From: Flavobacterium sp. ENC
GTDB taxonomy: Bacteria > Bacteroidota > Bacteroidia > Flavobacteriales > Flavobacteriaceae
NCBI RefSeq assembly: GCF_020991415.1
Contig: NZ_JAJMOY010000001.1
Span: forward strand, 248,001 to 312,000
Reading direction: 5' to 3'
Length of the DNA: 64,000 nucleotides
Shown in pieces: positions 10,896 to 31,977 of the stretch (its first letter is position 1; each line of letters opens with the position of its first letter). The notes beneath the pieces are model-generated. The model did not search any database. It saw nothing but the letters and a program-made list of their open reading frames with translations, and was not told where the DNA came from. The translations under genes were made by a program, and so were the position numbers.

Positions 10896-11342
10896 TTATT
10901 TTTTAAAACCCTGCATCTGATAATAAAAGGCAGGAATAAAAAGCAAAACAAAAATGGGCTGAATAATAAACCTCCTGACGTAAAAAAGCAGCCAGCTCCC
11001 GTCACGATAATAGTGGAGAATTACAAAAAACGCCGCGAAAAGGATCACCAGAAAACAACTATAGAGCAATGCACTGAACTTCACAATTTCCAAATCCTGA
11101 AACAGTACATAAATAAGCAGAAGCGACAAACCGGAGTTTAGAAAATAGCGCACTAAAAGTCCGAAAAAAAGTTTAGACACATCAACTTCAGGAAAAGGCA
11201 GCCCCTTAAAATCGGAATCAAAATAAACCAAAAAAGGATCATAGAACAATGCCTCTTCAAAAGCTCTTATAAGTCCAAAGCACAGTACTATAAGAACCGC
11301 AATGGTGATTTTTCCCTTATTATCCCTTACTTTATTTAGCAT
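10896..11342 (-). CDS. Exosortase F-associated membrane protein
   Basis: 148-aa membrane protein with about four hydrophobic segments. It overlaps the xrtF gene by 11 nt, the same arrangement seen in other flavobacteria where this family is found only next to XrtF. Landmarks include LFYDPFLVYFDSDFKGLPFP near residues 28-50 and the aromatic-rich C-terminal membrane segment. The biochemical role is unknown; it probably helps the exosortase. Confidence 0.85.
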   Translation of the reverse strand: MLNKVRDNKGKITIAVLIVLCFGLIRAFEEALFYDPFLVYFDSDFKGLPFPEVDVSKLFFGLLVRYFLNSGLSLLLIYVLFQDLEIVKFSALLYSCFLVILFAAFFVILHYYRDGSWLLFYVRRFIIQPIFVLLFIPAFYYQMQGFKK

Positions 11343-15250: not shown

Positions 15251-15258
15251 TACTTTTG
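15251..15258 (+). promoter_or_regulatory. Candidate -7 box of the first surface module
   Basis: TACTTTTG fits TAnnTTTG and lies 39 nt before the TTG start at 15297. The same octamer stands 38 nt before the paralogous gene at 21927, so the element is conserved between the two module copies. A -33 TTG is not evident. Confidence 0.6.
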
Positions 15259-15296: not shown

Positions 15297-16022
15297 TTGA
15301 AAAGACTTCAAAAAAACCTGTATTTTTTAATTTTATTTGGATTATTCCTAAACATTTATAATATTCACAGCCAAACCAACAATGAAGTTTCTACTTATAA
15401 CTGGTTTGATAAAAATCTTGGAATAGAATCTTTAGACTTCAAAAACGGACCCGCCCATTTAAACTTTGATAAAACAGCCAATAATCAGAATCGCTATTAT
15501 ATTGATGATTTTAAAAACGGCAGTATTATGTACAATGGCCAGCACTATTTCGATTTATACTTAAAGTATGACATCTATGCCGATGAATTAGTATTAAGGC
15601 CGTATGCCGAATCTAACACTACAAAAATAAATATCATTAAGGATTATGTCAGTTCTTTTAAAATTGGCAATCAAAAATTTACCAACCTAAAAGAACTAAG
15701 TTCGCCGAATCTCAAAAAAGGCTATTACGAAGAAGTGATTCTTGCTAACAACACCATTCTTTACATCAAATATTACAAGGAGAGAAACAATGTCGTGGGA
15801 GAGAACGCTTTTTACATCGGGTATCTTCTTAAATATGATTATATTCTTTTTAAGGACAACGACTTCCATTTAATAAATGATAAGAAAGAAATCATAAAAT
15901 TATATCCTGAAGACAAAAGAAAAATAAATGATTTTTATTTTAAGAACCGAAACTTAAAAAAGGAAGACCCCTCATTATTTATCAAAAATCTAATGAGATA
16001 CATTAACAATTTAAATCTGTAG
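15297..16022 (+). CDS. Unrecognised secreted protein, first copy
   Basis: 241 aa with a signal peptide (about residues 1-26, ending IHSQ). I do not recognise the family. It is paralogous to the protein at 21927: both share a WFDK motif after the signal peptide, an NGPxHxN motif, a YxxLxLKYDI motif and a C-terminal helix region with (Y/F)PExKxxI and NL-to-NL hydrophobic spacing. There is no lipobox, so the protein is periplasmic or is passed on to the surface. The start is TTG, chosen because it gives the signal peptide and aligns with the TTG start of the paralogue. It is 11 bp in front of a TonB receptor, so a joint role in uptake or sensing is likely but unproven. Confidence 0.75.
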   Translation: MKRLQKNLYFLILFGLFLNIYNIHSQTNNEVSTYNWFDKNLGIESLDFKNGPAHLNFDKTANNQNRYYIDDFKNGSIMYNGQHYFDLYLKYDIYADELVLRPYAESNTTKINIIKDYVSSFKIGNQKFTNLKELSSPNLKKGYYEEVILANNTILYIKYYKERNNVVGENAFYIGYLLKYDYILFKDNDFHLINDKKEIIKLYPEDKRKINDFYFKNRNLKKEDPSLFIKNLMRYINNLNL

Positions 16023-16033
16023 AAATTATCCCA

Positions 16034-18784
16034 ATGAGAATATTTACTATTATTTTATTATTTTTTGGTTTAAATCAATTCATGTATGCGCAGGGTCAAC
16101 AAACAAAAATAAGCATCAGTTACAGTAATGTTAACAGGGTCGAGGTTTTAAAAAAAATAGAAGCTTCAACCCATTATACGTTTTATTTTCAGGAGGACTG
16201 GTTTGATAAAACCGTTCTGATATCAGGAAATTATTCCAATGAAACCATCGGGGAAGTATTGTCAAAAGTTTTTGAAGATACAGAGCTTAATTTTTTTATT
16301 GATGATACTAAAATCATACTAACGAAAAACAGTATTATTTACGACAAATACAAAGGAAAAACCGCAAAAGGCACTGAAAAATCCAAAACTCCAATCTTTT
16401 TCCAACAATATGATTCGGTTAAAAAAGACAAGACAGATACCACCGCTCCAATTGCCTTAATTGGAAAAGAAGCCGTAGCTTCTGAAATTGATTTCTATAC
16501 GCTTTCAGGACATATTACGGACTTAAAAGACAATAAACCTCTGGCAGATATTACGGTAAAAGCAAAAAACACTTCTATCAGTACCATTACAAATGCAGAG
16601 GGGTTTTACAGCTTAAAGCTTCCAACCGGAATAAGTACTATCGAAATTGAATCTGTTTTTTACCGATCTGCCTCACGAAAAATAATGATTTACAGCAATG
16701 GTAATCTTGACTTTTCGACCACTGAAAAAATAAACCAACTGGATGAAGTTGTCGTAAAAGGAAAAGGCAATCAGAATGTCAGGACTGCTATAACAGGCGT
16801 TACCACTATTGAAGCAGAAGGAGTAAAAACGATTCCTTTGGTTCTTGGAGAAAGGGACATTCTTAAAGTTGCGCTGACAATTCCCGGAGTAAAAACGGCA
16901 GGTGAAGGTTCGTCCGGTTTTAATGTGCGTGGAGGAAAAGAAGATCAGAATCTTGTATTATTAGACAATGCAACGCTATACAATCCCACTCACCTATTCG
17001 GGTTCTTCTCTTCTCTCAACCCTTATACCATTAACAAAGTAGACATTTATAAAGGAGGAATTCCTTCCGAATATGGCGGCAGATTATCCTCTGTTTTTGA
17101 TATTGTTTCTAAAAATGGAAACACAGAAAAATTTTCCGGTGAAGGAGGTTTAGGTCCCGTAACAAGCAATCTTACTGCTTCAATTCCTGTTGTAAAAGGA
17201 AAAGCCAGCTTATTGGTTGGAGGAAGAGCCACTTATTCTGACTGGATTTTAAAAACCCTGGACGATGAAAACCTAAAAAACAGCCATGCCTCTTTTTATG
17301 ATTTAATTGCGAAATACAGTCATAAAATAAACAAAAACAATACTGTTGAAGGAACTGTATACTATAGCAAAGACGCTTACACAATAACGCCTGACTCTTT
17401 ATATAAGTACAGTAACAGGCTGGTTTCTCTGAAATGGAAACATGCTTTTAATGAAAAAACAAGCAGCGAATTTAACGTAACCAACAGCGAATATAAATTC
17501 AGTATTGATTATGAATCCACTACTCCTGAATCATTTTTATTTAAATATAAAATTGACGAAACTCAGGTCAATGTAAAATTTAATACGCTGTATACTGATA
17601 AACATAAATTTACTTACGGACTTTCGAGCAAACTTTATAAAATTAATCCCGGACAATTAAACCCAAATGGCGAATCTTCATTAATAGCTCCGATACGGAT
17701 TGATGACGAAAAAGGCTGGGAATCAGCATTATTTTTCTCGGATAAGTTTGAAATTACAGATCAATTATTGCTCGATATTGGCGCAAGATATTCGTTTTAT
17801 GCCCCTTTGGGAGCAGCAACCCAAAAGATTTATCAGGATGGGGTGCCAAAAACACCATCAACAGTAATAGAGGAAAAAAAATATGGTACTAATGAGGTTA
17901 TTAATTCCTCCGGAGGTTTTGAACCCAGAATTGGATTACGCTATATTGTTGATGACAGTTTCTTTATAAAAGCCGGCTTCGACAAAAATTTTCAATACAT
18001 TCATTTACTATCCAACAATACCACACAATCGCCAACAGATACCTGGAAATTATCGGATCTGAATGTTAAACCGCAAAGCGGATTACAGTATTCATTAGGT
18101 CTTTTTAAAACATTAGATTACGAACATTTAGAACTAAGCCTTGAAGGGTATTATAAAACTTCCAAGAACATTTTAGACTACAAAGTTGGAGCCAACATAC
18201 TTTTAAATCAAAATCTGGAAACCGAATTACTTCAGGGGGAAGGAAAAGCCTACGGGGTAGAATTTTTATTAAAAAAACCATACGGAAGACTTAACGGATG
18301 GATTGGCTACACCTACTCTAGAGCTTTTATAAAACTGGACAGTCAGTTTAATGATGAAAAGGTGAATGGCGGAAATTATTTCCCTGCCAATTTTGACAAA
18401 CCTCATGATGTAAGTATTGTGATGAATTACAAATTTACACATCGTTACAGCTTTTCTTCTAATTTTGTTTATCAAACCGGGAGGCCAGTTACCTATCCTA
18501 TTGGAAAATACACCTATGAAGGAGCAGAATATACGCTTTACAGTGACCGAAATAAATTTAGAATTCCTGATTATTACAGACTCGATATCGGGTTAAATAT
18601 TGAGGGAAATCATAAGATAAAGAAACTGGCACATAGTTTTTGGAACATTTCAGTATACAATGTATTGGGAAGAAACAATCCGTATTCCATCTTTTTTGTA
18701 ACGAAAGAAGGACAGGTAAAGGCGTACCAAACTTCTATTTTTGGAATGCCGATACCTACTATTACTTATAATTTTAAATTTTAA
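16034..18784 (+). CDS. STN-domain TonB-dependent receptor, first copy
   Basis: 916-aa outer-membrane transporter. In order: signal peptide (1-19), STN (secretin/TonB short N-terminal) domain (about 24-95) as in receptors that signal to anti-sigma factors, a 60-residue linker, a carboxypeptidase-regulatory-like beta-sandwich (about 155-235, TLSGHITDLKDNKPLADITV), plug (about 255-365, with GERDILKVALTIPGV, NVRGGKEDQNLVLLDNA and YGGRLSSVFDI) and barrel to the C-terminal Phe. It differs from SusC in the plug wording and is followed by DUF4249 rather than SusD genes. It is clearly paralogous, over its full length, to the receptor at 22702. Ligand unknown. Confidence 0.93.
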   Translation: MRIFTIILLFFGLNQFMYAQGQQTKISISYSNVNRVEVLKKIEASTHYTFYFQEDWFDKTVLISGNYSNETIGEVLSKVFEDTELNFFIDDTKIILTKNSIIYDKYKGKTAKGTEKSKTPIFFQQYDSVKKDKTDTTAPIALIGKEAVASEIDFYTLSGHITDLKDNKPLADITVKAKNTSISTITNAEGFYSLKLPTGISTIEIESVFYRSASRKIMIYSNGNLDFSTTEKINQLDEVVVKGKGNQNVRTAITGVTTIEAEGVKTIPLVLGERDILKVALTIPGVKTAGEGSSGFNVRGGKEDQNLVLLDNATLYNPTHLFGFFSSLNPYTINKVDIYKGGIPSEYGGRLSSVFDIVSKNGNTEKFSGEGGLGPVTSNLTASIPVVKGKASLLVGGRATYSDWILKTLDDENLKNSHASFYDLIAKYSHKINKNNTVEGTVYYSKDAYTITPDSLYKYSNRLVSLKWKHAFNEKTSSEFNVTNSEYKFSIDYESTTPESFLFKYKIDETQVNVKFNTLYTDKHKFTYGLSSKLYKINPGQLNPNGESSLIAPIRIDDEKGWESALFFSDKFEITDQLLLDIGARYSFYAPLGAATQKIYQDGVPKTPSTVIEEKKYGTNEVINSSGGFEPRIGLRYIVDDSFFIKAGFDKNFQYIHLLSNNTTQSPTDTWKLSDLNVKPQSGLQYSLGLFKTLDYEHLELSLEGYYKTSKNILDYKVGANILLNQNLETELLQGEGKAYGVEFLLKKPYGRLNGWIGYTYSRAFIKLDSQFNDEKVNGGNYFPANFDKPHDVSIVMNYKFTHRYSFSSNFVYQTGRPVTYPIGKYTYEGAEYTLYSDRNKFRIPDYYRLDIGLNIEGNHKIKKLAHSFWNISVYNVLGRNNPYSIFFVTKEGQVKAYQTSIFGMPIPTITYNFKF

Positions 18785-18786
18785 AG

Positions 18787-20001
18787 ATGATGAAAAAGAT
18801 CTTTCTGTATAGCTTTCCCGGAATTGCACTCTTAGCATCAATTTTCGGCTGCACTACGCCCTATAATTACCAAAACAATGACTTTGAAGATGTTATAATA
18901 GTAGAAGCTACCTTAACAAACGAATATAAAAACCACGAAGTAAAAATTTCCAGAACGTATTCTCTGGAAGAAAGCTTTCCGCAATTTGAATCTCAGGCTA
19001 TTGTAAATGTAACCGATGATTTAGGAAACAAATACGATTTTGCCGAGACTGGTTCTTCCTACGTATCTGTCGATAAATTTCAGGCAGTCCCGGAGCGGCA
19101 ATACCAATTACATATTATAACCAAAAACGGAAGAACATATGTTTCGGGTACAGAAAAACTGACCACTCAGACGCAGATTGGAAGTGTAGTACCAAATGTA
19201 ATAACCAAAAATGGAATACGCGGAGTAGAAATTGAAGTAAACAGTTCGGACCCCACGGGTACATCCAGATATTACAGGTATAAATATGACGAAACCTATA
19301 AAGTTGTAGCGCCTATGTGGTTTTCCCAGGAAGCTGTTCCTGCTGGCAATGTGGTCACTCTTAGTCCAAGAACCACAGAAGCACGAACTTGCTATTCAGA
19401 TCAAAAATCGAATGAAATAATACTAACAAGCACCAACGACTTATCTGAAGACCGGGTGAGCAATTTCCCTGTTAAGTTCATCAGCAGCAAAGACCCCATC
19501 ATTAGAAACAGATATAGTATTCTGGTAAAACAATATGTACAAACTCTTGCTGCCCATACGTATTATGAAACGCTAAAAGAAATATCAGATAACGGAAGCA
19601 TTTTGTCCCAGACCCAACCCGGTTTCTTTCGTGGAAATATCAAATCTGTTGATGATTCGCGTGAAAAAGTAATTGGTTTTTTTGAAGTGTCGTCTTATTC
19701 CGAAAAAAGAATATTTTTTAATTTTAATGATCTTTTTCCCAAAACATCATCTCCGGAATACCAATATTACTGCCCAATAGTAATTCCCGAAGGTGAAGCT
19801 GCCAATTTTTACTTTAATAATTGCTACAGTACAAGCCCAAATTCAACTTGTCAGGGCCCAACTATAGTAGAATTAATCAAAACCCGGGCAAGAGTGTTTT
19901 TCCCAACCGACGACTCTCAAAAAATTATATTATATACTATACAATGCGGAGATTGTACCTCCTTTTCCTCAAACATAAAACCATCATTTTGGATAGATTA
20001 A
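18787..20001 (+). CDS. DUF4249 lipoprotein, first copy
   Basis: 404 aa with a lipoprotein signal (IFGC, Cys near residue 22), so it is probably anchored in the outer membrane. The DUF4249 family is commonly encoded next to TonB receptors in Bacteroidota, in the place taken by SusD in sugar systems; its function is unknown. Landmarks are VVEATLTNEYKNHEVKISR-like N-terminal strands, YYRYKYDETYKVVAP, and a Cys-framed C-terminal part ending in CGDCTSFSSNIKPSFWID. The gene starts 2 nt after the receptor stop, and its last 13 nt overlap the next gene. Confidence 0.88.
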   Translation: MMKKIFLYSFPGIALLASIFGCTTPYNYQNNDFEDVIIVEATLTNEYKNHEVKISRTYSLEESFPQFESQAIVNVTDDLGNKYDFAETGSSYVSVDKFQAVPERQYQLHIITKNGRTYVSGTEKLTTQTQIGSVVPNVITKNGIRGVEIEVNSSDPTGTSRYYRYKYDETYKVVAPMWFSQEAVPAGNVVTLSPRTTEARTCYSDQKSNEIILTSTNDLSEDRVSNFPVKFISSKDPIIRNRYSILVKQYVQTLAAHTYYETLKEISDNGSILSQTQPGFFRGNIKSVDDSREKVIGFFEVSSYSEKRIFFNFNDLFPKTSSPEYQYYCPIVIPEGEAANFYFNNCYSTSPNSTCQGPTIVELIKTRARVFFPTDDSQKIILYTIQCGDCTSFSSNIKPSFWID

Positions 20002-21731
20002 GATATTTATTGGGTTTAACTTTACTACTAAGTTATCAGCAAATTGTATTTGCTCAGAAAAATAATGCTTTAGCGGAACTTAAAACTATCGACAAAAATT
20101 TAAACGAGTCGGTTTTCATCAGCACCAACACGAACTCTTTCTTAACAGGTGAGACGTTGTACTATAAAATATTTTGTGTTGACAAAACCACAAATGCACC
20201 CACAAAATACACCAAAGTCGCTTATTTTGAACTCATTGACAATAATAAAAAACCCGTTGTCACTCATAAACTATTTCTGGAAAACGGTAGCGGGAATGGC
20301 GATTTTTTTATTCCAACTACCTTAGAAACCGGAACTTATAAAATTATTGGGTATACAAACTGGATGTTGTCAAATAATGGCGCTGAAGAATTTTTCAATA
20401 CTGATATCTATATTGTAAATCCTTATAGGGAAAAGGCAGTTTCTACTCCTGATCCGGTTACCGATCCACAAGAGATCGTGCTGTCAAGTACAACTAATGA
20501 CAATATTTCTTTTGATTTAAAGAACAAAATATTTAATAATCGGGAGCAAGTCGAGCTAAAAGTCAATGCCGGTTCTGATGATTTTTTAAAAGGAAATTAT
20601 ATGATTTCGGTTAGAAAAACGGATGGTTTTTTAGCGCAAAACAAAATAATTTTTAGCGATTATCAGGCAACACATCAGAGTACTTCTTACAGTAATATCG
20701 TTAATAACTCAAATTTAGTTTTGCCTGAATTGAGAGGAGAGATAATCTCCGGCAGAATAACATCTGCAACAGAAGAAATTAAAAATAAACAAATTGGCCT
20801 TTCGCTTGTAGGGAAGAATTATGATGCGAAAATTAGCAAAACAGACGAGCAAGGGAGATTTATCTTTAATATAGAAAAAGCAAATCCAAACCCTAATATT
20901 ATCGTTCAGGTACTGGAATATAACAAAGAAAGTTATAGCATCGAAATGGACAAACAGAAGGAAGCGGATCTTTCTAACCTAAAATTTCCTGATTTGAAAT
21001 TCAACCCCGACTCCGACAAAAATATAACCGAAAGACTGGTTTCAAGTCAGGTAGAAAACGCCTATTACAACATCAAAAAAGACAGTTTGCTTTCTCCTGC
21101 TAATTTTACTCCGTTTTATGGTTCTTTGTCTAAAGAATATAAACTTGATGATTTTACAAGATTTCCAACCATGGAAGAAACCATTACAGAAGTGATAAGT
21201 GGAGTGGTTTTCAGAAAAAACAATCAAAACTATTCTTTGCATGTATATGATTATGATGAAAATTACGAATCCTCATCGCAACCATTAGTTGTTGTTGACG
21301 GGCTTATTCTTGACGATTTAAACGAATTTTTCACCTACAACCCTAAGAATATTTATAAAGTCAATGTGGTAAAAGGACTTTATTATTATGGTTCAAAATC
21401 ATTTAACGGAGTGGTGGCGTTTACTACAAAAAATGGAGATTATAAAACTAAACTAAAAGGTAATTTTATAATAACACCGGAACTTTTGAGGCCTCAGGGT
21501 AAAAAACAACACTTTCAACCGGATTATTCAGACAATAAAAATACCAGAATCCCAGATTACAGGCATCAGCTTTTATGGGTACCCAATGCCGATTTAAGTG
21601 TTTCCAGTATTAAATTTTACACATCCGATATATCCGGAAAATTTGAGGTATTGTTAGAAGGATTTTCAGCAAGTGGAAAGCCTGTTTATATAAGGGAAAT
21701 TATCGAAGTGAAAAAATCCAATTCCAATTAA
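19989..21731 (+). CDS. Secreted MG2-like protein with a barrel-less TonB plug segment, first copy
   Basis: 580 aa if started at the TTG inside the end of the DUF4249 gene, which gives the signal peptide MDRLRYLLGLTLLLSYQQ and matches the start of the paralogue at 28024. After cleavage (FAQ) comes a macroglobulin-like beta domain (about 35-135, TGETLYYKIFC and LETGTYKIIGYTNWM), a carboxypeptidase-regulatory-like domain (about 240-330, PELRGEIISGRI) and a segment near residues 445-500 that reads like the core of a TonB plug (VVVDGLILDDLNEF, YKVNVVKGLYYYGSKSFNGV, TKNG). No barrel follows; the protein ends in another beta domain. An ATG at 19944 would add 15 residues and spoil the signal peptide. 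Function unknown. Confidence 0.8.
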   Translation: MDRLRYLLGLTLLLSYQQIVFAQKNNALAELKTIDKNLNESVFISTNTNSFLTGETLYYKIFCVDKTTNAPTKYTKVAYFELIDNNKKPVVTHKLFLENGSGNGDFFIPTTLETGTYKIIGYTNWMLSNNGAEEFFNTDIYIVNPYREKAVSTPDPVTDPQEIVLSSTTNDNISFDLKNKIFNNREQVELKVNAGSDDFLKGNYMISVRKTDGFLAQNKIIFSDYQATHQSTSYSNIVNNSNLVLPELRGEIISGRITSATEEIKNKQIGLSLVGKNYDAKISKTDEQGRFIFNIEKANPNPNIIVQVLEYNKESYSIEMDKQKEADLSNLKFPDLKFNPDSDKNITERLVSSQVENAYYNIKKDSLLSPANFTPFYGSLSKEYKLDDFTRFPTMEETITEVISGVVFRKNNQNYSLHVYDYDENYESSSQPLVVVDGLILDDLNEFFTYNPKNIYKVNVVKGLYYYGSKSFNGVVAFTTKNGDYKTKLKGNFIITPELLRPQGKKQHFQPDYSDNKNTRIPDYRHQLLWVPNADLSVSSIKFYTSDISGKFEVLLEGFSASGKPVYIREIIEVKKSNSN

Positions 21732-21857
21732 TCTTTAGAATATCCGGATAATAAACTGTTCTAATTACTAAATCGGCCTTTTGGAAACCTTTCTTTGAAT
21801 AAAACAAACTATTATACTAAAAAATTAAAAGAAAATAGTATGTTTTAACAGTTACTG

Positions 21858-21873
21858 TGTGATTTTTATCACA
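21858..21873 (+). promoter_or_regulatory. CRP/FNR-like palindrome upstream of the second module
   Basis: TGTGA-N6-TCACA, a perfect 5+5 inverted repeat with the spacing of CRP-family sites. It covers the expected -33 region of the promoter whose -7 box is at 21882. The first module has no such site. A role as an operator is inferred. Confidence 0.4.
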
Positions 21874-21881
21874 TTTTTTAA

Positions 21882-21889
21882 TACTTTTG
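21882..21889 (+). promoter_or_regulatory. Candidate -7 box of the second surface module
   Basis: TACTTTTG fits TAnnTTTG, 37 nt before the TTG start at 21927. It is the same octamer at nearly the same distance as in front of the first module. The 195-bp gap after 21731 holds this box and the palindrome and no clear terminator, so some read-through from the first module is possible. Confidence 0.6.
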
Positions 21890-21926
21890 AAATCATCAAA
21901 TCAAATCCTTAAAATCACACAATATT

Positions 21927-22697
21927 TTGAAAAATTATCAAAATAAATCTATTTTCCTTATCTTATTTGGATTATTCTTACATATTCAAGCCATACACAG
22001 TCAGACAAACAATACTACATCCTTACACAGCTGGTTTGATAAATCAGTGGGGAAACAAAATTTAGAACTGTATAATGGCCCGCGTCATGTTAATCTCTAC
22101 AGGACGCTGGATAAAAGTCATAGTTACTATTTCTCCAATAACTACAGCAAAGGAGATCTTAAATATCAGGATCAGAATTATTACAATCTGGATCTTAAAT
22201 ATGATATCAATAATGACATCATAGTTTTGAAGGCTACTGGCGAATATGATTATCTGGGCATTAATCTGATTAAAGAGAAAACAGCCTGGTTTACCCTGAA
22301 CAACAAAAAATTTATTAATATAAATTTCAATAACCCTGCAAGTCCGGCTTACATGAGTGGTTATTACCAGGAAATCCTTTTTTCAAAAAACATTACACTT
22401 TATATCAAACATCATAAAAACAGAACAAAAGTTATTGATACCAAGGCTATTTCTGACGGAACCAATCAGAATAGCTCTGATGAATTCAAAGAAAAAAATG
22501 AATATGTCTTAAAATACAAAGATGCCTACTACAAAATAAGTTCAAAAAGTGACGTTATTGAAATTTTTCCGGAGCAAAAAAGCGAAATAAAAAGATACTA
22601 TAACTCTAATACTCAATTAGAAGAATACGATAAGAAAGTTTTTATTGAAAATTTAATAAAAGAAATCAACAGCCTTATCCCTAATGAAGTCAATTAA
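21927..22697 (+). CDS. Unrecognised secreted protein, second copy
   Basis: 256 aa, paralogue of the protein at 15297, with the same signal peptide style (LFGLFLHIQAIHSQ), WFDK, NGPxHxN and LKYDI motifs. It carries an extra segment of about 15 residues near 175-190 (TNQNSSDEFKEKNEY). Start is TTG, as in the first copy. Its end is 4 nt before the chosen start of the TonB receptor. No known domain recognised. The conserved place at the head of both modules suggests a dedicated partner of the receptor. Confidence 0.75.
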   Translation: MKNYQNKSIFLILFGLFLHIQAIHSQTNNTTSLHSWFDKSVGKQNLELYNGPRHVNLYRTLDKSHSYYFSNNYSKGDLKYQDQNYYNLDLKYDINNDIIVLKATGEYDYLGINLIKEKTAWFTLNNKKFININFNNPASPAYMSGYYQEILFSKNITLYIKHHKNRTKVIDTKAISDGTNQNSSDEFKEKNEYVLKYKDAYYKISSKSDVIEIFPEQKSEIKRYYNSNTQLEEYDKKVFIENLIKEINSLIPNEVN

Positions 22698-22701
22698 AGA
22701 A

Positions 22702-25479
22702 ATGAGAAAAATTATATTAGCCCTGTTTTTATTAGCTTTTCATACGTTATCGTTTAGTCAGGAAAAAAAGAACAACATATCAATTGAATTTAAAAATGCC
22801 GACTTAAAAACAGCTATAGAAAGTCTCGAAAAAGCGGCAGGTTACAAATTTTATTTTGATGAAAACTGGATCAAATCTGAAACTGTTGTAATAAACGGGA
22901 CTTTCACAGATACTTCCATTGATGAAGTGCTTAATGTCATTTTCGAAAAAACAAACCTGAATTACTTCATTACCAATAAAAAAATAATACTGACAAAAAA
23001 TACTATCATCCACAGTTCCCTGCCCGATAATTATTTTGAACCTGCCACTACTGCGCAAATAATTACCGAAAACAAGGAAAAAGCAAAACCTTTGTTTCAC
23101 CAACAACTCGATAGCAAAAAACAAAATACTACCAGTAACGGCATAACCTATATTGGGAAAGAGAAAAAAGAAGAAGAATTAAAATCATACACCTTATCCG
23201 GCACCATAAAGAATGAGAAAACTAAAAAACCTCTTTCTAACGTAACCATTAAAGTGCGTGATAAAAACATCAGTACCACAACTGACGAACAGGGTTATTA
23301 TAAAATTGATGTTCCTTACGGCCTCAATTATATAGAGATAGAATCTATCAACCATAGAAAAGACACACAACCGATTATGGTTTATGACGATGGCAAGCTG
23401 GACGTAACGCTTTACGAAAGCATCAATGAGCTGGACGAAGTAGTCATTAATAAGAACGCCAATCGAAATGTAAAAACTGCCGTAGCCGGGGTTTCCAGTA
23501 TAGATGTCGAAGGAATAAAAAACATTCCGCTGGTCCTGGGAGAACGTGATATTTTTAGGGTTGCCACTACCTTACCCGGGATTAAAACTACTGGTGAAGG
23601 CTCTGCAGGATTTAATGTGCGTGGAGGAAAAGACGATCAGAACCTGATACTTTTAGACAATGCTGTTTTATACAATACCTCGCATTTCCTTGGATTTTTC
23701 TCTGCTGTTAATCCATACACCACCAGTAAAGTAGATATTTATAAAGGAAGTATTCCCGCAAGATTTGGCGGAAGATTATCTTCTGTTTTTGATATTACCA
23801 CAAAAAATGGCAATCCTGAAAAATTCTCAGGTGAAGGAGGAATCGGATCTGTAACAAGTAACCTTTCGATAAGCACGCCTATAATAAAAAACAAATCTAG
23901 CTTATTAGTCGGTGTCAGAGGAACCTATTCAGAATGGATTCTAAAACGTTTAAAAGATGAATCTTTAAAAAACAGTGAAGCCTCATTTTTTGATGGAATT
24001 CTAAAATACAATCACAAAATAAGCGACAACAATAATATTGAGACAACTTTATATTACAGTAAAGATCGTTTTAGCATTTCTTCGGATTCTGTCTATAAAT
24101 ACAGTAATGCATTGGTTTCATTAAAATGGAATCACTCTTTTAACGCGAAAAGTAAGGCGGATCTGATATTTACGAATAGTGAATACAAATTCAATATTGA
24201 CTATGACAACGGAGGAATCAATTCGTTTGATTACGGATATAAACTAAATGAAACCCAGGGTATCCTAAATGGAAATTATACCTTAAATAAAAAGCACGCT
24301 TTTAACTATGGTGTTTCAAGCAAACTTTACAATGTTGATCCGGGATACCTGCATCCTAAAAAACCGGAAGATGCCACTTTAATTCCCGTAAATATAGACG
24401 GGGAAAAAGCATTAGAATCAGCGGTTTATTTTTCAGACAATTATAATGTTACTGAAAAATTACTGATCACTATGGGTTTACGCTATTCGAGTTATTCTGC
24501 ACTGGGGGAAGCCACGGAAAGAATTTACCAAAGTAATGCCCCCATTAATGACAACACGGTAATTGGAACCCAATATTACAAGAAAAATGAAGCGATTAAA
24601 ACATACGGTGGATTTGAACCCCGAATTGCAGCCCGTTATTTATTTACAGATGATTTCTCTGTAAAAGCCAGCTATGACAAAACATATCAATACATTCACC
24701 TGTTAACCAGCAATACAACACAATCGCCTACCGATGCCTGGAAGTTGTCTGATTTAAATATAGCGCCTCAAAAAGCACAGCAATTTTCATTAGGTTTTTA
24801 TAAAAACCTAGACGATGACAAATTAGAACTTAGTTTAGAAGGATATTATAAAAAATCTGATAACTTATTAGACTACAAGGTTGGCGCTGAATTGCTATTG
24901 AATAAAAATCCTGAAACGCAGCTGCTTCAGGGAGAAGGAAAAGCTTACGGAGTAGAGTTGTTAATCAAAAAAAATACAGGCAGCCTTAATGGCTGGTTAG
25001 GCTATACCTATGCCCGAACTTTTATTAAATCAGACAGTCAGTTTGCAGAAGAAAAGGTAAACAATGGCCATTATTTCCCGACAAACTTTGACAAACCACA
25101 CGAAGTAAGTGCTGTATTAAATTATAAATTCACAAAAAGATACAGTCTTTCCGGTAATTTTGTATACCAATCCGGAAGACCAATTACCTATCCGATAGGA
25201 AGCTATGTCTATAATGGTTTGGAATATACCTTGTATAGTGACAGGAATAAATTTAGAATCCCTGATTACTACCGATTAGATCTTGGATTTAACATTGAAG
25301 GAAACCATAAAATCAAAAAGCTGTCGCATAGTTTCTGGAACATATCGATTTATAATGTTTTAGGAAGAAACAATCCGTATTCTATCTTTTTTGTAACAAC
25401 TAATGGCGAGATAAAAGCATATAAAACGTCTATATTTTCGGTGCCTATTCCTACCATAACTTACAATGTCAAATTTTAA
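22702..25479 (+). CDS. STN-domain TonB-dependent receptor, second copy
   Basis: 925 aa from the ATG at 22702, which starts a good signal peptide (MRKIILALFLLAFHTLSFS) and aligns with the first copy; an ATG at 22684 overlaps the previous gene and is less likely. Domain order equals that of the receptor at 16034: STN (about 20-95), linker, carboxypeptidase-regulatory-like domain (about 160-240, TLSGTIKNEKTKKPLSNVTI), plug (GERDIFRVATTLPGI, NVRGGKDDQNLILLDNA, FGGRLSSVFDI) and barrel to a C-terminal Phe. The C-terminal barrel half is the most similar part between the copies. It is followed by two DUF4249 genes. Ligand unknown. Confidence 0.93.
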   Translation: MRKIILALFLLAFHTLSFSQEKKNNISIEFKNADLKTAIESLEKAAGYKFYFDENWIKSETVVINGTFTDTSIDEVLNVIFEKTNLNYFITNKKIILTKNTIIHSSLPDNYFEPATTAQIITENKEKAKPLFHQQLDSKKQNTTSNGITYIGKEKKEEELKSYTLSGTIKNEKTKKPLSNVTIKVRDKNISTTTDEQGYYKIDVPYGLNYIEIESINHRKDTQPIMVYDDGKLDVTLYESINELDEVVINKNANRNVKTAVAGVSSIDVEGIKNIPLVLGERDIFRVATTLPGIKTTGEGSAGFNVRGGKDDQNLILLDNAVLYNTSHFLGFFSAVNPYTTSKVDIYKGSIPARFGGRLSSVFDITTKNGNPEKFSGEGGIGSVTSNLSISTPIIKNKSSLLVGVRGTYSEWILKRLKDESLKNSEASFFDGILKYNHKISDNNNIETTLYYSKDRFSISSDSVYKYSNALVSLKWNHSFNAKSKADLIFTNSEYKFNIDYDNGGINSFDYGYKLNETQGILNGNYTLNKKHAFNYGVSSKLYNVDPGYLHPKKPEDATLIPVNIDGEKALESAVYFSDNYNVTEKLLITMGLRYSSYSALGEATERIYQSNAPINDNTVIGTQYYKKNEAIKTYGGFEPRIAARYLFTDDFSVKASYDKTYQYIHLLTSNTTQSPTDAWKLSDLNIAPQKAQQFSLGFYKNLDDDKLELSLEGYYKKSDNLLDYKVGAELLLNKNPETQLLQGEGKAYGVELLIKKNTGSLNGWLGYTYARTFIKSDSQFAEEKVNNGHYFPTNFDKPHEVSAVLNYKFTKRYSLSGNFVYQSGRPITYPIGSYVYNGLEYTLYSDRNKFRIPDYYRLDLGFNIEGNHKIKKLSHSFWNISIYNVLGRNNPYSIFFVTTNGEIKAYKTSIFSVPIPTITYNVKF

Positions 25480-25490
25480 TACTCATTACA

Positions 25491-26711
25491 ATGAAGTTCA
25501 TGATTCGACATATTCGTTTTCTTTGTAAAGCACTTGTTTTAGTACTTTTTTGCCTTTCTACGGGCAGTTGTACGGAGCAATACGCTTTTCAGACCAATAC
25601 ATTTGAAAACATACTTGTTGTTCAGGCAAGCATTACCAATGAGTTAAAAAAACAGGAAATTAAGATTACGAGATCCTATCGTCTGGAGGAAAACTTACCA
25701 ACTCCCGAAAAAGGAGCTATCGTTTACGTAACCGACAGCGAAAACAACAGCTACGAATTTGAATTTGAAGACTTCTCCGGTCTGTATGTTTCCAGCAATC
25801 CTTTTCAGGCAGTCGCCGGGAGATCCTACCAGTTGAATTTCTCCACCAAAGACGGGAAATCATATTCGTCCGAAATGGAAACCCTGACTCCTGTTAGTGA
25901 AATTGAAGTAGAGCCAAAAATCGAAACCATTGACGGAGAAAAAGGGGTACAAATAAGGGTAACCAGTTTTGATCCCAGCTCAAAATCACAATTTTACAGA
26001 TTCGAATATGACGAAACATATAAAATAGTAGCGCCCGACTGGAAACCTAATAAACTTATTGTAGACCCAAGCAACCCGGGTCCGGAATACACTTTCCTGA
26101 CTGTTCCCAGAAATAATGGCGAATCAAGAATATGCTACACCACAAAAAAATCAGATGATTTAATGTTAATAAGCAATGTAGGCCTTAGTGAAGACCGTAT
26201 CAATCTGCCCATCCGTTTCATAAACATCAAGGATCCCGTTATTATGCAGCGTTACAGCATTATAGTCCGCCAATATGTTCAGAATTTAGCTTCTTATACG
26301 TATTACAAAACCTTAAAAAATCTTTCTACTTCTGCCAGTCTGCTTTCACAAGTACAACCAGGGTTTAATTATGGCAATTTAAAATCAAATGATGATCCGA
26401 ATGAGAAAATAATTGGCCTCTTTGAGGTATCATCAATTTCATCAAAAAGAATATTTTTCAATTTCAGGGATATCTTTATAACGGAACAGCATCCTTCATT
26501 TTTTTTCAGTTGTGCTCCACTTGAATTATTAAATTGCTGGGGTTTGGGTTGCGGCGGACCAAAAATATATTCCATAGTTACGGGATTAGGGCGAGAGTTT
26601 ATATTTTACGGATCTCAGGACTATATGGAAAGAATTATATTTGTTCCGTCACCTTGTGGTGATTGTACACAAATTTCATCTAACATCAGGCCTTTATTCT
26701 GGATAGACTAA
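25491..26711 (+). CDS. DUF4249 lipoprotein, second module copy A
   Basis: 406 aa, lipoprotein signal ending TGSC (Cys about residue 27). Very similar to the next gene through most of its length (EQYAFQTNTFE, ITRSYRLEEN, PFQAV, FYRFEYDETYKIV, WKPNKLI, NLPIRFI, VQPGFNYGNLKS). The similarity breaks in the segment between FRDIF and CGDCT, where only the cysteines, a GP and a YSIVTG motif are kept. It ends CGDCTQISSNIRPLFWID. Unlike the other two DUF4249 genes, it is not followed by the plug protein gene; a short dead frame starts at the corresponding place. Confidence 0.88.
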   Translation: MKFMIRHIRFLCKALVLVLFCLSTGSCTEQYAFQTNTFENILVVQASITNELKKQEIKITRSYRLEENLPTPEKGAIVYVTDSENNSYEFEFEDFSGLYVSSNPFQAVAGRSYQLNFSTKDGKSYSSEMETLTPVSEIEVEPKIETIDGEKGVQIRVTSFDPSSKSQFYRFEYDETYKIVAPDWKPNKLIVDPSNPGPEYTFLTVPRNNGESRICYTTKKSDDLMLISNVGLSEDRINLPIRFINIKDPVIMQRYSIIVRQYVQNLASYTYYKTLKNLSTSASLLSQVQPGFNYGNLKSNDDPNEKIIGLFEVSSISSKRIFFNFRDIFITEQHPSFFFSCAPLELLNCWGLGCGGPKIYSIVTGLGREFIFYGSQDYMERIIFVPSPCGDCTQISSNIRPLFWID

Positions 26712-26809
26712 AAAATAACAAATAAAATAATTAGCAGTACCTGACACATTTAGTTACTATACCAAATATGTCGGTAAGAATAAAAAAAGAGAATACAAAT
26801 TACCTACTT

Positions 26810-28036
26810 ATGAAATTTATAATTCAACATATCAACTTTTTAGGCAGGACAATTGCTTTAGTACTTTTTTGCCTTTTTATGAGCAGTTGTACCGAGCAAT
26901 ATGCTTTTCAAACCAACACCTTTGAAAGCATACCGGTTGTTCAGGCAATCCTTACCAATGAATTAAAAAAACAGGAAGTAAAAATCACCCGATCCTATCG
27001 TCTGGAGGAAAATGGCCCAACTCCTGAAAAAGGAGCAACTGTCTTCATCACCGATAGCGATAATAATACGTATGAATTTGAATTTGAAGAATTCTCTGGT
27101 CTTTATGTTTCAAACACTGCTTTTCAGGCGGTTCCCGGAAAATCATACCAACTGAATATAACAACCCCTGACGGAAAATCGTACTCGTCTGAACCAGAAA
27201 CCTTAACTCCTATTACTGAAGTACAGGTGGAACCTAAAATCGAAACAATCGATGGCCAAAAAGGGGTACAGATAGTAGTGACCAGTTATGACCCGGCTTC
27301 AAAATCACAATTTTACAGATTCGAATATGACGAAACTTATAAAATAGTATCTCCCGACTGGAAACCCAATAAACTAATCTTAGACCCAAGCAATCCGGGT
27401 CCTGATTTTACGTATCTGACGGTGCCCAGAGATAATGGAGAATCAAGAGTTTGTTATACCACTAAAAAATCAGATGATTTGCTGTTAATCAGCAACGTAG
27501 GCCTTGGTGAGGACCGAATCAATCTGCCAATCCGTTTTATAGATGTAAAAAGTCCGATCCTGTACGAGCGATACAGCATTGTAGTCCGTGAATATGTTCA
27601 GAATCTGGCCTCATATACCTATTATAAAACTTTAAAAAACCTTTCCACCTCCTCAAGTCTTTTATCACAAGTTCAGCCGGGTTTTAATTATGGTAATTTA
27701 AAATCAAATGATAATTCCGACGACAAAATAATTGGCTATTTTGAAGTATCGTCCGTTTCATCAAAAAGAATCTTTTTTAATTTCAGGGATATCTTTAAAG
27801 ACGATCCTTACCCGCCTTTTATTGCAGATTGCAGTCAGACAATATCATTGGCTAACTGTTTTACAGACAAATTCTGCAGAGGGCCGCAAATATATTCGAT
27901 AGTTACAGGGGCCGGAACAGAGTATGTGTTTTTTGCCGCTCTTAATAATAACACTACCTATGTTTTTACTCCTGCACCTTGTGGTGACTGTACTAAAATT
28001 TCATCTAACATTAAACCTTTATTTTGGATAGATTAA
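26810..28036 (+). CDS. DUF4249 lipoprotein, second module copy B
   Basis: 408 aa from the ATG at 26810, which aligns with the start of copy A (MKFIIQHINF against MKFMIRHIRF); an upstream start at 26768 would put a charged extension before the signal peptide. Lipobox FMSSC. It is the closest relative of copy A and a more distant one of the gene at 18787, so copies A and B come from a later duplication. It ends CGDCTKISSNIKPLFWID, and its last 13 nt overlap the plug protein gene. The gap to copy A is about 98 bp without a clear promoter or terminator. Confidence 0.88.
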   Translation: MKFIIQHINFLGRTIALVLFCLFMSSCTEQYAFQTNTFESIPVVQAILTNELKKQEVKITRSYRLEENGPTPEKGATVFITDSDNNTYEFEFEEFSGLYVSNTAFQAVPGKSYQLNITTPDGKSYSSEPETLTPITEVQVEPKIETIDGQKGVQIVVTSYDPASKSQFYRFEYDETYKIVSPDWKPNKLILDPSNPGPDFTYLTVPRDNGESRVCYTTKKSDDLLLISNVGLGEDRINLPIRFIDVKSPILYERYSIVVREYVQNLASYTYYKTLKNLSTSSSLLSQVQPGFNYGNLKSNDNSDDKIIGYFEVSSVSSKRIFFNFRDIFKDDPYPPFIADCSQTISLANCFTDKFCRGPQIYSIVTGAGTEYVFFAALNNNTTYVFTPAPCGDCTKISSNIKPLFWID

Positions 28037-29811
28037 AACGAATAACCAGCACAATAATGCTAATAGCAATAAATACTTTTGCTATTGCTCAAAATAGTTC
28101 ATTAAACAAAAATGAAACTATTAGTACAGCTACGACTGAAAATATATTTGTTCATTTAAACAACACAACATTAATTACCGGAGAGACACTGCATTGCAAA
28201 TTGTATTGTACCAATCCGGCCAATAATGCTTTGAGCAAAATCAGCAAAATTGCTTATGTTGATCTTATCAACAGTGACAATCAGGTTGTTTTTACCAATA
28301 AAATTTATCTGGATAACGGAAAAGGACAGGGCGAATTTTTCATTCCGGCCACAATTGAAACAGGCAACTATAGACTTATTGCCTACACCAAATGGATGTT
28401 GAATAAAAATGATTTTAAAACTTCTAAAACGGATCTTTTAGTAATAAATCCTTATTTAGCTGCTAAAAAATCTAACCCAAATAAAAATTATAACTCCCAG
28501 AGCCAGGAAACAAAAGCATTAGAGAGTGCATCTGTTGCAGAAAATCAAATTAAGGATAAAAATTTCGCAATAACATTAGATAAAAATACATTTCAGGAAA
28601 GAGAACTGGTTCAGTTAAAAATAAACTCTTTAACTCCTGAAATCAAAAAAGGAAGTTTTTCTCTTTCGGTAAAGAAAATTGACAATTTGCCTGCGAAAAG
28701 ACAAATAAACGCTTCAGAGTTTGTAAAATTAAATTCTACTAATGAAATCACAAACCGAATAAATGATTCGATCCAGTTTCTTCCTGAGCTTAGAGGAGAA
28801 ATTATTTCCGGCACTATTACAAATAGCAAAGACCCTAAACAGGTAAGCTATAAAAACGTAGCATTATCTATTCCCGGTAAGGAATTTGCCTTTAAAATAG
28901 TTCAAACCAATCAATCCGGAAGATTCAACTTTGTTCTGGATAAAAATCCAAATTATTCTAACGTTGTGGTTCAGGTATTGGAAAATGATAAGAACGACTA
29001 TAAAATAGAAATCGATAAAAAGACAGGCTACAGTTTTTCCGATTTAAAAACGAACGATGAGCTATCCCTGACTGCAGATTACAAAGAAGCTATCGAACAA
29101 AGATCCGTTGCCAACCAGATAGAGAATTCGTATTACCCGCTAAAAAAAGACAGTATAGCGGCAAATCAGAGTACTTTTCCGTTTTATCATCCGCTGGAAA
29201 AAGAATATGTACTGGCTGACTATACAAAATTCCCTACCCTAAAAGAAACTATCACAGAAGTTGTAAAAGAGATGTATTATCGCGAAAAGGACAATAATTA
29301 TTCTTTAAATCTAAGAGATATCAATTACGACCTGGAATATTTTTCGGAACCGGCTTTGGTATTGGTGGACGGGCTTTTAATTCAGAATGTAAATGAATTA
29401 TTTACTTACAAAACAGAAAACATCTATAAAGTAAGCATTGTTCCGGGCGTCTATTTTTATGGTCCAAAAGCTTTTAATGGCGTAATCAATTTCACTACTA
29501 AAAACACTGATTATGTAACATCGGCAAGTGGCAGTTATATTTTGAAAACGGAGATTCAAAGACCTCAGAATAAAATCATCGCTTTCAAAGAAGATTACAC
29601 CGATAAAAGCAAATACGAAAGAATTCCGGATTTCAGATATCAATTGCTTTGGCAGCCGGAATTAACTTTAGAAAACAAAGAAAACATAATCTCCTTTTTT
29701 ACTTCTGATGTTTCAGGAAAATACGAAGTAAACCTGGAAGGATTTACAAATGAAGGAACTCCTGTTTCCTTAAAAGAAACTTTTGAAGTAAAAGATTCAA
29801 CGGTAAATTAA
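28024..29811 (+). CDS. Secreted MG2-like protein with a barrel-less TonB plug segment, second copy
   Basis: 595 aa, paralogue of the protein at 19989. It starts at a TTG within the last codons of DUF4249 copy B; no other start exists upstream in this frame, which supports the same TTG for the first copy. Signal peptide about residues 1-22 (ending AIAQ), macroglobulin-like domain (TGETLHCKLYC, IETGNYRLIAYTKWM), carboxypeptidase-regulatory-like domain (PELRGEIISGTI) and plug-like segment (LVLVDGLLIQNVNELF, YKVSIVPGVYFYGPKAFNGV, TKNTDY). The C-terminal domain (FFTSDVSGKYEVNLEGF) is shared too. It is the last gene of the module and is closed by a terminator. Function unknown. Confidence 0.82.
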   Translation: MDRLKRITSTIMLIAINTFAIAQNSSLNKNETISTATTENIFVHLNNTTLITGETLHCKLYCTNPANNALSKISKIAYVDLINSDNQVVFTNKIYLDNGKGQGEFFIPATIETGNYRLIAYTKWMLNKNDFKTSKTDLLVINPYLAAKKSNPNKNYNSQSQETKALESASVAENQIKDKNFAITLDKNTFQERELVQLKINSLTPEIKKGSFSLSVKKIDNLPAKRQINASEFVKLNSTNEITNRINDSIQFLPELRGEIISGTITNSKDPKQVSYKNVALSIPGKEFAFKIVQTNQSGRFNFVLDKNPNYSNVVVQVLENDKNDYKIEIDKKTGYSFSDLKTNDELSLTADYKEAIEQRSVANQIENSYYPLKKDSIAANQSTFPFYHPLEKEYVLADYTKFPTLKETITEVVKEMYYREKDNNYSLNLRDINYDLEYFSEPALVLVDGLLIQNVNELFTYKTENIYKVSIVPGVYFYGPKAFNGVINFTTKNTDYVTSASGSYILKTEIQRPQNKIIAFKEDYTDKSKYERIPDFRYQLLWQPELTLENKENIISFFTSDVSGKYEVNLEGFTNEGTPVSLKETFEVKDSTVN

Positions 29812-29960: not shown

Positions 29961-30512
29961 TTGAATTTAGACCAACTCATCAAGGACTGTTGCAGGCAAA
30001 ACAGAAAAGCACAAGAAGCGTTATACGAAATGTATAAAAAGACTCTTTTTGTGTTAAGTCTCAAATATTGCCCCAATGCTGCAGAAGCAGAAGACAATCT
30101 TCACGACTCTTTTATTGAAATTTTTACCAATATAAAAAAATATAAAGGAGATGGAAGTTTTGAGGGCTGGATTAAAAGAATCACCATCAACAAGGCAATA
30201 ACCCGGTACAAGCAATCGTATACGCTCACTGCTATCAAAGACGATTATCCTGAGGACCATACTATCAATGAAACTGAAATTGATTTGCCTCTGGAAACTA
30301 TTTTATCTTTTGTTCAGGAGCTGCCTCACCAATATCGTCTGGTTTTCAATTTATACGAACTGGATGATTACTCCCATCAGGAAATCGCAGCAATGTTATC
30401 AATATCCGAAAGTACCTCAAAATCAAACTTACACAGGGCAAAACAGATTTTGAAAGAAAAAATCAAATCAAAAAGCACATTTTATTATTCTAAACGGAAA
30501 AATGGAAAATAG
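29961..30512 (+). CDS. ECF-type RNA polymerase sigma factor
   Basis: 183 aa with sigma region 2 (about residues 22-90, EALYEMYKKTLFVLSLKY, AEDNLHDSFIEIF, FEGWIKRITINKA) and region 4 (about 115-170, ELPHQYRLVFNLYELDDYSHQEIAAML, then the SESTSKSNLHRAKQIL helix-turn-helix). Start is TTG. It overlaps the next gene by 11 nt. The pairing with a transenvelope partner downstream suggests that the partner is its anti-sigma factor. Regulon unknown; the adjacent surface modules are candidates. Confidence 0.93.
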   Translation: MNLDQLIKDCCRQNRKAQEALYEMYKKTLFVLSLKYCPNAAEAEDNLHDSFIEIFTNIKKYKGDGSFEGWIKRITINKAITRYKQSYTLTAIKDDYPEDHTINETEIDLPLETILSFVQELPHQYRLVFNLYELDDYSHQEIAAMLSISESTSKSNLHRAKQILKEKIKSKSTFYYSKRKNGK

Positions 30513-31977
30513 AACTGAAATAGGAAAGAAAATCAAAGGCAAGTTAGCTGATTTGGATAAAAATCCAAGTGAATTTGTCTGGTCCAAGATTGAAACCGAT
30601 CTTAATAAAAAAAGGAACAAAAGAATTTTATCCTGGATATTTTCAGGCGCAATTGCTATTGCGTTTATTGCTGCAATATTCTATTTTAATTCAGATTTTC
30701 AGGACAAAACTCAAAAAACGGCAGCTCATGCAAAACAAGAAACTAAAACTTCTACAGCAAAATCAGATCTTGTATCAGATCAAAAACAAAATCAGGGATC
30801 AAATCCAAAACTGCAAAAATCAGGATCTGATATCGTTACCCGAGTTAAAAAAACCAAAAGTGTAAAACTAGTTAAGGAATCGAGCAAACTGGTGACTTCT
30901 ACAAATGAGTACGAAGAATACGAAGTCGTAAAAAAATACAAAGTCATACTTAAAAAAGAACAGGTAACCACGAAACTATTAAAGTCGGGAACCGTAAAAA
31001 AAACGATTCAGCCAAAAGCTCAGGAAAATAAACTACTGGTAAAAAAAAACAAAACTACAGACCCAAAGTCTAAAAAAAAGACCAAAAATCATAGTACAAA
31101 AGCCGAAAAAACTGTCTATAAACCCCTAGTCAACGAAATTCCTAAAAAGAACGCTACGGAAAAAGACGCTGCAACACCAACAAAAACGGAAAACATTCCA
31201 CGAATAATTGAAGTAAAAACCGATACCATTGCAAAAATTGACAGTCTCAAATTAAACAAAGGCACACTTCCGAAAAGAGCCTATAAAAAAACCGTTTATA
31301 CTACTGAAAGCAAAGAATCAGATCCGGAAGTGAGTATATCCATTTTTTACGGTCCCGCCATTTCAGGATCTTTAAACAGTGCCTCAATGATCGATCCATC
31401 TATGGATAACTTGGCTAAAAAACACCCAATCACTTCGCATTATGGTATCTATGTAAAAACCATGTACGACAGAATCGGTTTTAGGGCGGGATTTTCTAAA
31501 ATAAACTTAAAAAATTCAACCCGATTAGATAAAGATGAATTAATAGCAAATTATAACAATATCGCATTAAAGTCTGAAATTAATATAAAACAAACCTTTG
31601 CCGGTTCAAATGAAGTGGACTTAGTACAAAAGCTATCCTACTATGAACTTCCAATAGAATTTGTATATGCTTTCAAAAAAGAGGAAAGTAAAATCGGAAT
31701 GGAAGCTTTTACGGGATGCAGCTTCTTAATTTCAGACAAAAACCAGCTTTCCCTACAATCTGAAAAAGTTGCTATGCAAAATATCGGGGAAGCAAAAAAT
31801 ATTTCAGGCATCAATTTTTCATACAATTTAGGAATAGGAATCAGCTATAAATTAAATTCAAAATTTAATCTGGACATCAATCCTCTCTTCAAATATTATT
31901 TAAGTACTTTCAAAGAAAGCGGCGACGCTAAACCGTATAGTTTCTCACTTCAATCCGGCGTTAGTTATAAATTTTAA
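30502..31977 (+). CDS. Putative dual membrane-spanning anti-sigma factor (Dma-like)
   Basis: 491 aa in four parts: a short cytoplasmic N-terminus with a PSEFVWSKIETDL motif (about 1-41), one inner-membrane segment (about 42-62), a very Lys/Thr-rich disordered linker (about 63-275) and a C-terminal outer-membrane beta-barrel-like domain (about 280-491) that ends in YKF. This layout matches the Dma proteins described in Bacteroides thetaiotaomicron, single-chain anti-sigma factors that cross both membranes and are encoded with an ECF sigma gene. The 11-nt overlap with the sigma gene fits such a pair. Anti-sigma activity is inferred. Alternatively it is just a membrane-anchored OmpA/PorT-like barrel protein. 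Confidence 0.75.
   Translation: MENRTEIGKKIKGKLADLDKNPSEFVWSKIETDLNKKRNKRILSWIFSGAIAIAFIAAIFYFNSDFQDKTQKTAAHAKQETKTSTAKSDLVSDQKQNQGSNPKLQKSGSDIVTRVKKTKSVKLVKESSKLVTSTNEYEEYEVVKKYKVILKKEQVTTKLLKSGTVKKTIQPKAQENKLLVKKNKTTDPKSKKKTKNHSTKAEKTVYKPLVNEIPKKNATEKDAATPTKTENIPRIIEVKTDTIAKIDSLKLNKGTLPKRAYKKTVYTTESKESDPEVSISIFYGPAISGSLNSASMIDPSMDNLAKKHPITSHYGIYVKTMYDRIGFRAGFSKINLKNSTRLDKDELIANYNNIALKSEINIKQTFAGSNEVDLVQKLSYYELPIEFVYAFKKEESKIGMEAFTGCSFLISDKNQLSLQSEKVAMQNIGEAKNISGINFSYNLGIGISYKLNSKFNLDINPLFKYYLSTFKESGDAKPYSFSLQSGVSYKF

Follow-up and report, generated by a model that had tools for sequence, protein, structure and literature searches.

A widely conserved gene module joins a TonB-dependent receptor and a DUF4249 lipoprotein to a predicted macroglobulin-fold protein in Flavobacteriaceae and other families

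Introduction

When the same set of genes stands twice in a row on a chromosome, is this an accident of local duplication or a unit that is kept together for a common function? The question is raised by positions 15297-29811 of a 64,000-nucleotide stretch of the Flavobacterium sp. ENC genome (contig NZ_JAJMOY010000001.1), the whole of which is called the window here. This plus-strand locus consists of two tandem copies, A1-B1-C1-D1 followed by A2-B2-C2a-C2b-D2, where A is a secreted protein, B a TonB-dependent receptor, C a DUF4249 lipoprotein and D a protein with a predicted macroglobulin fold. We find that the locus is not a local accident but belongs to a widely conserved module, whose minimal form is B-C-D, with A as frequent and D as constant company. 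We further propose, as one candidate function, a lidded uptake machine of the outer membrane.

Results

The two copies in the window

Copy 1 opens with A1 (15297..16022), a secreted protein of 241 residues with a signal peptide recognised by eye, no lipobox by pattern and no Pfam family. It is followed by the 916-residue receptor B1 (16034..18784), with CarbopepD_reg_2, Plug and barrel domains by Pfam and an STN-like part by homology to B2; by C1 (18787..20001), a DUF4249 lipoprotein by Pfam and alignment, whose Cys-rich tail ends in FWID; and by D1 (19989..21731), a 580-residue protein with a predicted macroglobulin fold and a plug-like part, whose TTG start overlaps the C1 stop. Copy 2 comprises A2 (21927..22697; 256 residues; mean predicted local distance difference test score, pLDDT, of 76.9 with AlphaFold2), the STN-type receptor B2 (22684..25479; 931 residues, a later start at 22702 being possible), the DUF4249 lipoproteins C2a (25491..26711; Pfam and alignment) and C2b (26768..28036; later start at 26810 possible), and D2 (28024..29811; 595 residues), a macroglobulin-fold protein with a plug-like part according to its structure model and profile comparison.

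A preliminary description of the window had given this gene order, these domains and the doubling of the DUF4249 gene in copy 2, all of which agree with the open reading frame list and Pfam. It had also called the four parts paralogous in pairs with conserved junctions, and so they are: identity is 38% for A1/A2, 58.5% for B1/B2, 42% for D1/D2, 44% for C1 against C2a or C2b and 74% for C2a/C2b, and a 13-base overlap of C and D, TTGGATAGATTAA, is identical in both copies. Because the copies share this overlap, the start of D1 is most likely 19989 rather than 19821, the position in the mechanical open reading frame list. The genome holds five DUF4249 genes; the two outside the window encode proteins of 280 and 283 residues and have a receptor alongside, with no A or D within the 9 to 10 kb fetched.

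The module is conserved across Flavobacteriaceae

A search of 60 relatives, 36 of them from the same genus, with D2 identified eight other genomes with a close D (expectation value, E, ≤5e-120), and all eight loci have the order A-B-C(1 to 3)-D. The order of copy 2 also occurs in Flavobacterium circumlabens, F. cupreum, F. poyangense and Flavobacterium sp. LC2016-13 and LC2016-23; in F. cupreum and LC2016-23 the rear of B, C and D of a type-1 copy precede copy 2 in the fetched stretch. In genome G421, A and D each match twice, in alternation. At the F. circumlabens locus (L054, 4648-7463) B is split over two overlapping frames of 194 and 753 residues, by a frameshift or a sequencing error.

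Our family survey with a D profile covered 199 genomes from 198 genera and considered no more than six candidates per genome, so that its match counts are lower bounds. It returned at least 38 matches outside the own genome (E ≤1.4e-73) in 33 other genomes, followed after a gap by matches from 2.9e-27 onward in frames mostly of 780 to 1550 residues. All 38 close D loci were fetched, as 37 stretches. C is the nearest module gene on the same strand for every one of the 38 D, and B lies in the same stretch for 36; the other two D stand at contig ends, in genomes where A-B-C is found at the end of another contig. A accompanies 24 of the 38, 22 within the stretch and two via the split contigs. The order varies to B-D-C at two of the family loci, and at some a further C lies behind D. 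Searching the family with A gave 30 matches outside the own genome: these modules account for all 24 strong ones (E ≤2.9e-35) and for none of the six weak ones (8.4e-15 to 4.7e-4), one of which was inspected. The search for the four-gene order in other Flavobacteriaceae, which the preliminary description had recommended, thus found it. That description had further reasoned that families found mostly apart from each other would point to an accident. For the close D and strong A examined this is not what is seen, as they occur with B and C except at contig ends; it does apply to the wider families, where the long D-like paralogues and the majority of DUF4249 genes stand outside the module.

Beyond the family, we searched 345 genomes of the phylum with A and D profiles. 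Each of the 28 strong A matches outside the own genome (E ≤1.7e-18) has a D match no more than about 8 kb away on its contig; for one of the three in genome G091 that D match comes from the family survey. Fifteen class-level loci were collected, ten with D at E ≤1.8e-41, three with A near a weaker D and two with a weaker D alone. Twelve of them are complete, 11 as A-B-C-D and one as A-B-D-C, in 11 genomes from five families and with D proteins of 547 to 882 residues; the other three are two B-C-D loci without A and one contig end with C and D. In L132 (genome G310) A is broken into frames of 160 and 96 residues, and B, C, C and D are whole.

Control loci gave a different picture. None of A, B or C was found in ten stretches with long D-like paralogues, and neither A nor D in 19 stretches centred on other DUF4249 genes, chosen among the matches listed, 14 of which contain a receptor. 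Receptor plus DUF4249 protein is a general, published pair, and A and D therefore mark one branch of it.

The four genes are inherited together

In trees of 18 modules, copy 1 with locus L041 and copy 2 with six relatives form clades with 100% bootstrap support for all four genes. L092 (genome G077) and L093 (G091), from two genera, are each other's nearest neighbour for all four genes, and each of these genomes holds further modules besides. L086 and L074 pair in the same way for three genes, B, C and D; A is the exception.

Receptor and lipoprotein carry module-specific marks

Pfam reports CarbopepD_reg, Plug and barrel domains in B1 and B2. It also reports STN (PF07660) in B2 at 29.4 bits, against a cut-off of 28.4, but not in B1 at E up to 1, and the B2 N-terminus matches FecR_C as well (25.4 bits, cut-off 24.4). 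We therefore rely for the other loci on an STN model built from the module's own receptors, with counts over 103 stretches without doubles. This model matches 66 of 70 receptor frames at other module loci; of the four that it misses, three run off the end of the stretch and the fourth is the 3' half of a split gene, and whole receptor N-termini match in 66 of 66 cases, at 35.5 bits or more. Of the 17 receptor frames seen close to non-module DUF4249 genes, 11 gave no match, five gave weak ones (12 to 30 bits) and one was cut. The term STN-type receptor, as used in the preliminary description, is thus backed by Pfam for B2 and by their own model for the module receptors, with B1 passed over by Pfam, and we regard the predicted STN part as a module-specific mark of B. 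The SusC/RagA model TIGR04056 scores B1 and B2 at 49.8 and 33.1 bits, far below its cut-off of 368.25. An LDEVVV-type motif between the regulatory and plug parts, which we take to be the TonB box, was found by pattern in 39/51 B, in 0/49 D and in 1/12 long relatives of D.

The three C proteins match DUF4249 at 153.7, 128.5 and 119.1 bits (Pfam cut-off 28.5), and all 16 C that were aligned share the lipobox cysteine. Beyond the Pfam domain the tail carries CxxC in 106 of 110 module C and ends in an aromatic residue and W in 107 of 110, two of the exceptions being cut by contig ends. Outside modules, 6/18 carry both features, four in module-holding genomes and two at a receptor-DUF4249 locus without A or D in a further such genome. 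On these counts we regard the CxxC tail as a module-specific mark of C. A sequence search of the PDB with C gave a best E of 0.27. DUF4249 genes of the module type, with CxxC and FW, were also seen in L142, L143 and L144 without a recognised receptor in the stretch, genomes G436 and G351 holding the module elsewhere. At L095, L075 and L089, a single receptor gene shares its locus with four or five DUF4249 genes.

D is predicted to be a macroglobulin chain with a plug-like part

Pfam lists MG2 below threshold among the better matches of both D (25.3 bits, cut-off 32.8). The D2 model, built from a 49-sequence alignment (mean pLDDT 83.9; predicted template modelling score 0.81), matches complement C3 (8oq3_A) with Z 18.7 and a root-mean-square deviation of 3.0 over 227 aligned residues, and Escherichia coli A2M (4rtd) with Z 17.9 and 2.5 over 214; the best Foldseek E is 3.0e-13. 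The model thus assigns D a macroglobulin chain as its main fold. CGEQ, the thioester motif of alpha-2-macroglobulins, which some bacterial members are said to lack, is absent from D1 and D2, and a PDB sequence search with D gave a best E of 0.43.

D had been described as a barrel-less plug protein. Up to E 1, Pfam reports Plug in neither D1 nor D2, and at E 0.01 it finds Plug in 5/12 long relatives and 0/49 short D. In profile comparison, short D and the long relatives match along almost their entire length (100%); the long relatives in turn match B (88.8%, E 2.5e-6) over the regulatory and plug parts, which follow each other in the same way in both. A putative embedded plug-like part can therefore be kept, by way of the longer relatives, within a chain whose predicted main fold is that of a macroglobulin. 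Separately, L047, L048 and L051 each encode two or three macroglobulin-plug proteins side by side, each about 800 residues long and outside any receptor module, and one of those in L047 has the LDEVVV motif. A "TonB-dependent receptor plug" gene from a hemolysis mutant was considered as a D and set aside, being listed there with a RagA/SusC domain (PMC7881567).

The lipobox pattern occurs in 1/49 D and 2/34 A. Pfam reports no type IX sorting domain for the 49 D at E up to 0.01 or for 34 A members at E up to 1, and nothing consistent over these A. The fold modelled for A has no clear match (best Foldseek E 0.044; best VIA Z 2.8), and no PDB sequence match was better than E 0.28. Since A and D lack an anchor signal by pattern, both are probably periplasmic. 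The neighbours of weak A relatives in L087 and L158 (two glycosyltransferase-type proteins, a LysR regulator and a CotH-type protein) gave no functional lead.

Promoter octamer and flanking genes

The promoter-like octamer TACTTTTG lies on the plus strand at 15251..15258, 46 bases before the A1 start, and at 21882..21889, 45 bases before the A2 start. TAnnTTTG is a general promoter element of Flavobacterium. The octamer occurs within 150 bases 5' of A in 8/10 Flavobacterium modules, including the two in the window, and in only 3/24 modules from other genera (11/34 in total, where shuffled sequences give an expectation of 3.9). The octamer is a mark of the genus rather than of the module: the conservation previously noted between the two copies extends to most Flavobacterium modules but to few elsewhere.

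Counted as one gene cluster, whose scanned member is polynucleotide phosphorylase, pnp adjoins 10 of the 13 Flavobacterium loci, as in the window, and one locus of another genus. A common position alone could explain the gene order within the genus, and it is therefore the wider survey that counts. Penicillin amidase, Mg-chelatase-type and DsbD-type genes flank the module at several loci; considered as clues to a substrate, they look like chromosomal position only. As the flanks vary between loci, the order of the module has been kept against reshuffling.

At 29961-31977, 3' of the module, the window encodes an extracytoplasmic function (ECF) sigma factor and then a 491-residue protein in which an N-terminal part is followed by a hydrophobic stretch, a long segment of low complexity and, at the C-terminus, a domain resembling a barrel that scores below the Pfam cut-off. 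This layout is that described for the Dma anti-sigma factors of Bacteroides (PMC13088901). By neighbour clustering, such a pair lies near the module at 5/13 other Flavobacterium loci and at none from other genera, so it is not a conserved part of the module. Elsewhere in the window, the minus strand at 11332-11868 has a weak, sub-threshold exosortase match (24.2 bits, cut-off 25.7).

Discussion

What, then, might the module do? We propose, with about an even chance of being right, that it encodes a lipoprotein-lidded, TonB-dependent uptake machine with two periplasmic partners, A and D. On the outside, C would close over B like a lid, as SusD, BtuG or XusB do, and one operon has five such putative lid genes for one receptor; B would import the bound substrate with TonB energy. 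At the inner face, A and D would be soluble periplasmic partners. D, a reduced macroglobulin chain with embedded regulatory-like and plug-like domains related to those of B and without a TonB-box-like motif, may dock under the barrel on the STN and plug side and receive or gate what comes through, and A may help in this step. Our data show the gene order, co-inheritance, domain make-up, the model fold of D and, by pattern, its lack of the motif; lid action, the periplasmic place of A and D, docking and import go beyond them. The lid part would follow from a published suggestion and from the XusAB and BtuBG analogues. That DUF4249 takes the place of SusD, as the preliminary description had it, fits the module but is not new, having been proposed for BT2172/BT2173 (PMC11003636).

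Several of our own results weigh against this proposal. A is missing for 13 of the 38 D of the family, with one further D cut by a contig end, and is therefore dispensable; "four-part" describes the full form of the module and not its minimal one. The signal peptides of A and D were judged by eye and by pattern. The best-Z match of D2 spans 227 of its 595 residues and whole-chain Foldseek template modelling (TM) scores are 0.15-0.25, which means that domains match and not the whole arrangement. Short D matches B directly with an hhalign probability of 17.8% (E 0.0014), and because this is weak the link between D and B runs through the long relatives. The motif is also missed in 12/51 B and 11/12 long relatives, which makes its absence from D less telling. 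Distance correlations among the genes, 0.85 to 0.93 over 51 modules, are inflated by common ancestry. Between C2a and C2b, identity is 77-85% over the DUF4249 core and 39% in the stretch equivalent to C1 residues 309-350; a special diversification of lids within an operon is nevertheless not supported, as the C tail, though variable, differs no more between lids of one operon than core identity predicts over 58 co-operonic pairs.

A bolder version, which we think unlikely, makes D a soluble second plug that has been stripped of the TonB box and docks into or under the B barrel while TonB pulls the plug of B, so that it gates the pore or takes the cargo. Together with an outer lipoprotein lid this would amount to a double-gated outer-membrane transporter, a design of which we know no example. 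It is likewise improbable, in our estimate, that the module mainly senses, with C and B detecting a ligand, the STN of B signalling with A and D to an anti-sigma factor, and uptake being secondary. STN is the signalling domain of FecA-type receptors and B2 has it; B2 also passes the FecR_C cut-off by a small amount, and the window has its ECF sigma factor and Dma-like protein, a candidate cognate pair, 3' of the module. Such pairs nevertheless cluster with the module at only 5 of 13 other Flavobacterium loci and at none from other genera, and the Pfam matches of the 491-residue protein are sub-cut-off barrel domains, with FecR not among them.

Export or assembly, with B helping to release a protein (D, A or another) from the cell or to insert it into the outer membrane, strikes us as very unlikely. 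Oar-like receptors, like B, have a CarbopepD_reg domain before the plug, and A and D seem to have a signal peptide but no anchor. In Myxococcus, Oar is needed to secrete PopC (PMC6434023). A lipoprotein encoded with the receptor, however, fits uptake lids, and Pfam found no type IX sorting domain in the D and A sets. There is, finally, hardly any chance that the genes stand together through local duplication with no functional linkage. The window copies are tandem paralogues and most Flavobacterium loci lie at pnp, but the order is kept over many genera, several families and varied flanks, and the window's two types form matching clades whichever of the four genes is used for the tree; the spread over genera and flanks leads us to reject this explanation.

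The module can be set beside several known systems. For BT2172/BT2173, Price and colleagues proposed that the DUF4249 protein works with a TonB-dependent receptor (PMC11003636), and the word lid comes from the title of a preprint cited there. The module likewise encodes a plug-and-barrel receptor beside a DUF4249 protein above the curated cut-off, but differs from that pair, as far as it is described in that source, in the STN of B, the Cys-containing, FW-ending tail of C, and A and D in the operon. SusCD/RagAB also have receptor and lipoprotein in one operon, whereas none of the nine module proteins matches a SusD family (Pfam, E up to 1) and B stays below the SusC/RagA cut-off. Lipoprotein lids outside the SusD family are known on the TonB-dependent transporters of XusAB, where the XusB lid is DUF4374 (PMC13142918), and of BtuBG (PMC10404256); the putative lid of the module is DUF4249 and comes with a macroglobulin-plug partner, and no such partner appears for XusAB or BtuBG in the passages of these two sources. 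D shares macroglobulin domains with alpha-2-macroglobulin and complement, as its match to C3 suggests, but has about 590 residues, lacks CGEQ in D1 and D2 and contains a putative plug-like part.

The DUF4249 lid idea is thus already in print (PMC11003636). We found no description of the four-gene set in literature titles and the starts of abstracts, a search that did not include the key preprint on lids, so its absence from print is not established. What is new here is A; D as a predicted macroglobulin-fold protein, without the TonB-box-like motif, whose long relatives have a pair of regulatory and plug domains in common with the receptor; the STN mark of B; and the CxxC mark of C. Surprisingly, a receptor of this kind is constantly accompanied by a macroglobulin-plug protein and often by the secreted protein A. 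To our knowledge, neither substrate nor partners have been identified for many of the TonB-dependent receptors in Bacteroidota. In the module, a gene order shared by many genera links two families of uncharacterised proteins to a single type of receptor and so offers a definite complex for purification. A receptor-type plug set inside a macroglobulin would represent a new way of handling cargo at the inner face of the outer membrane.

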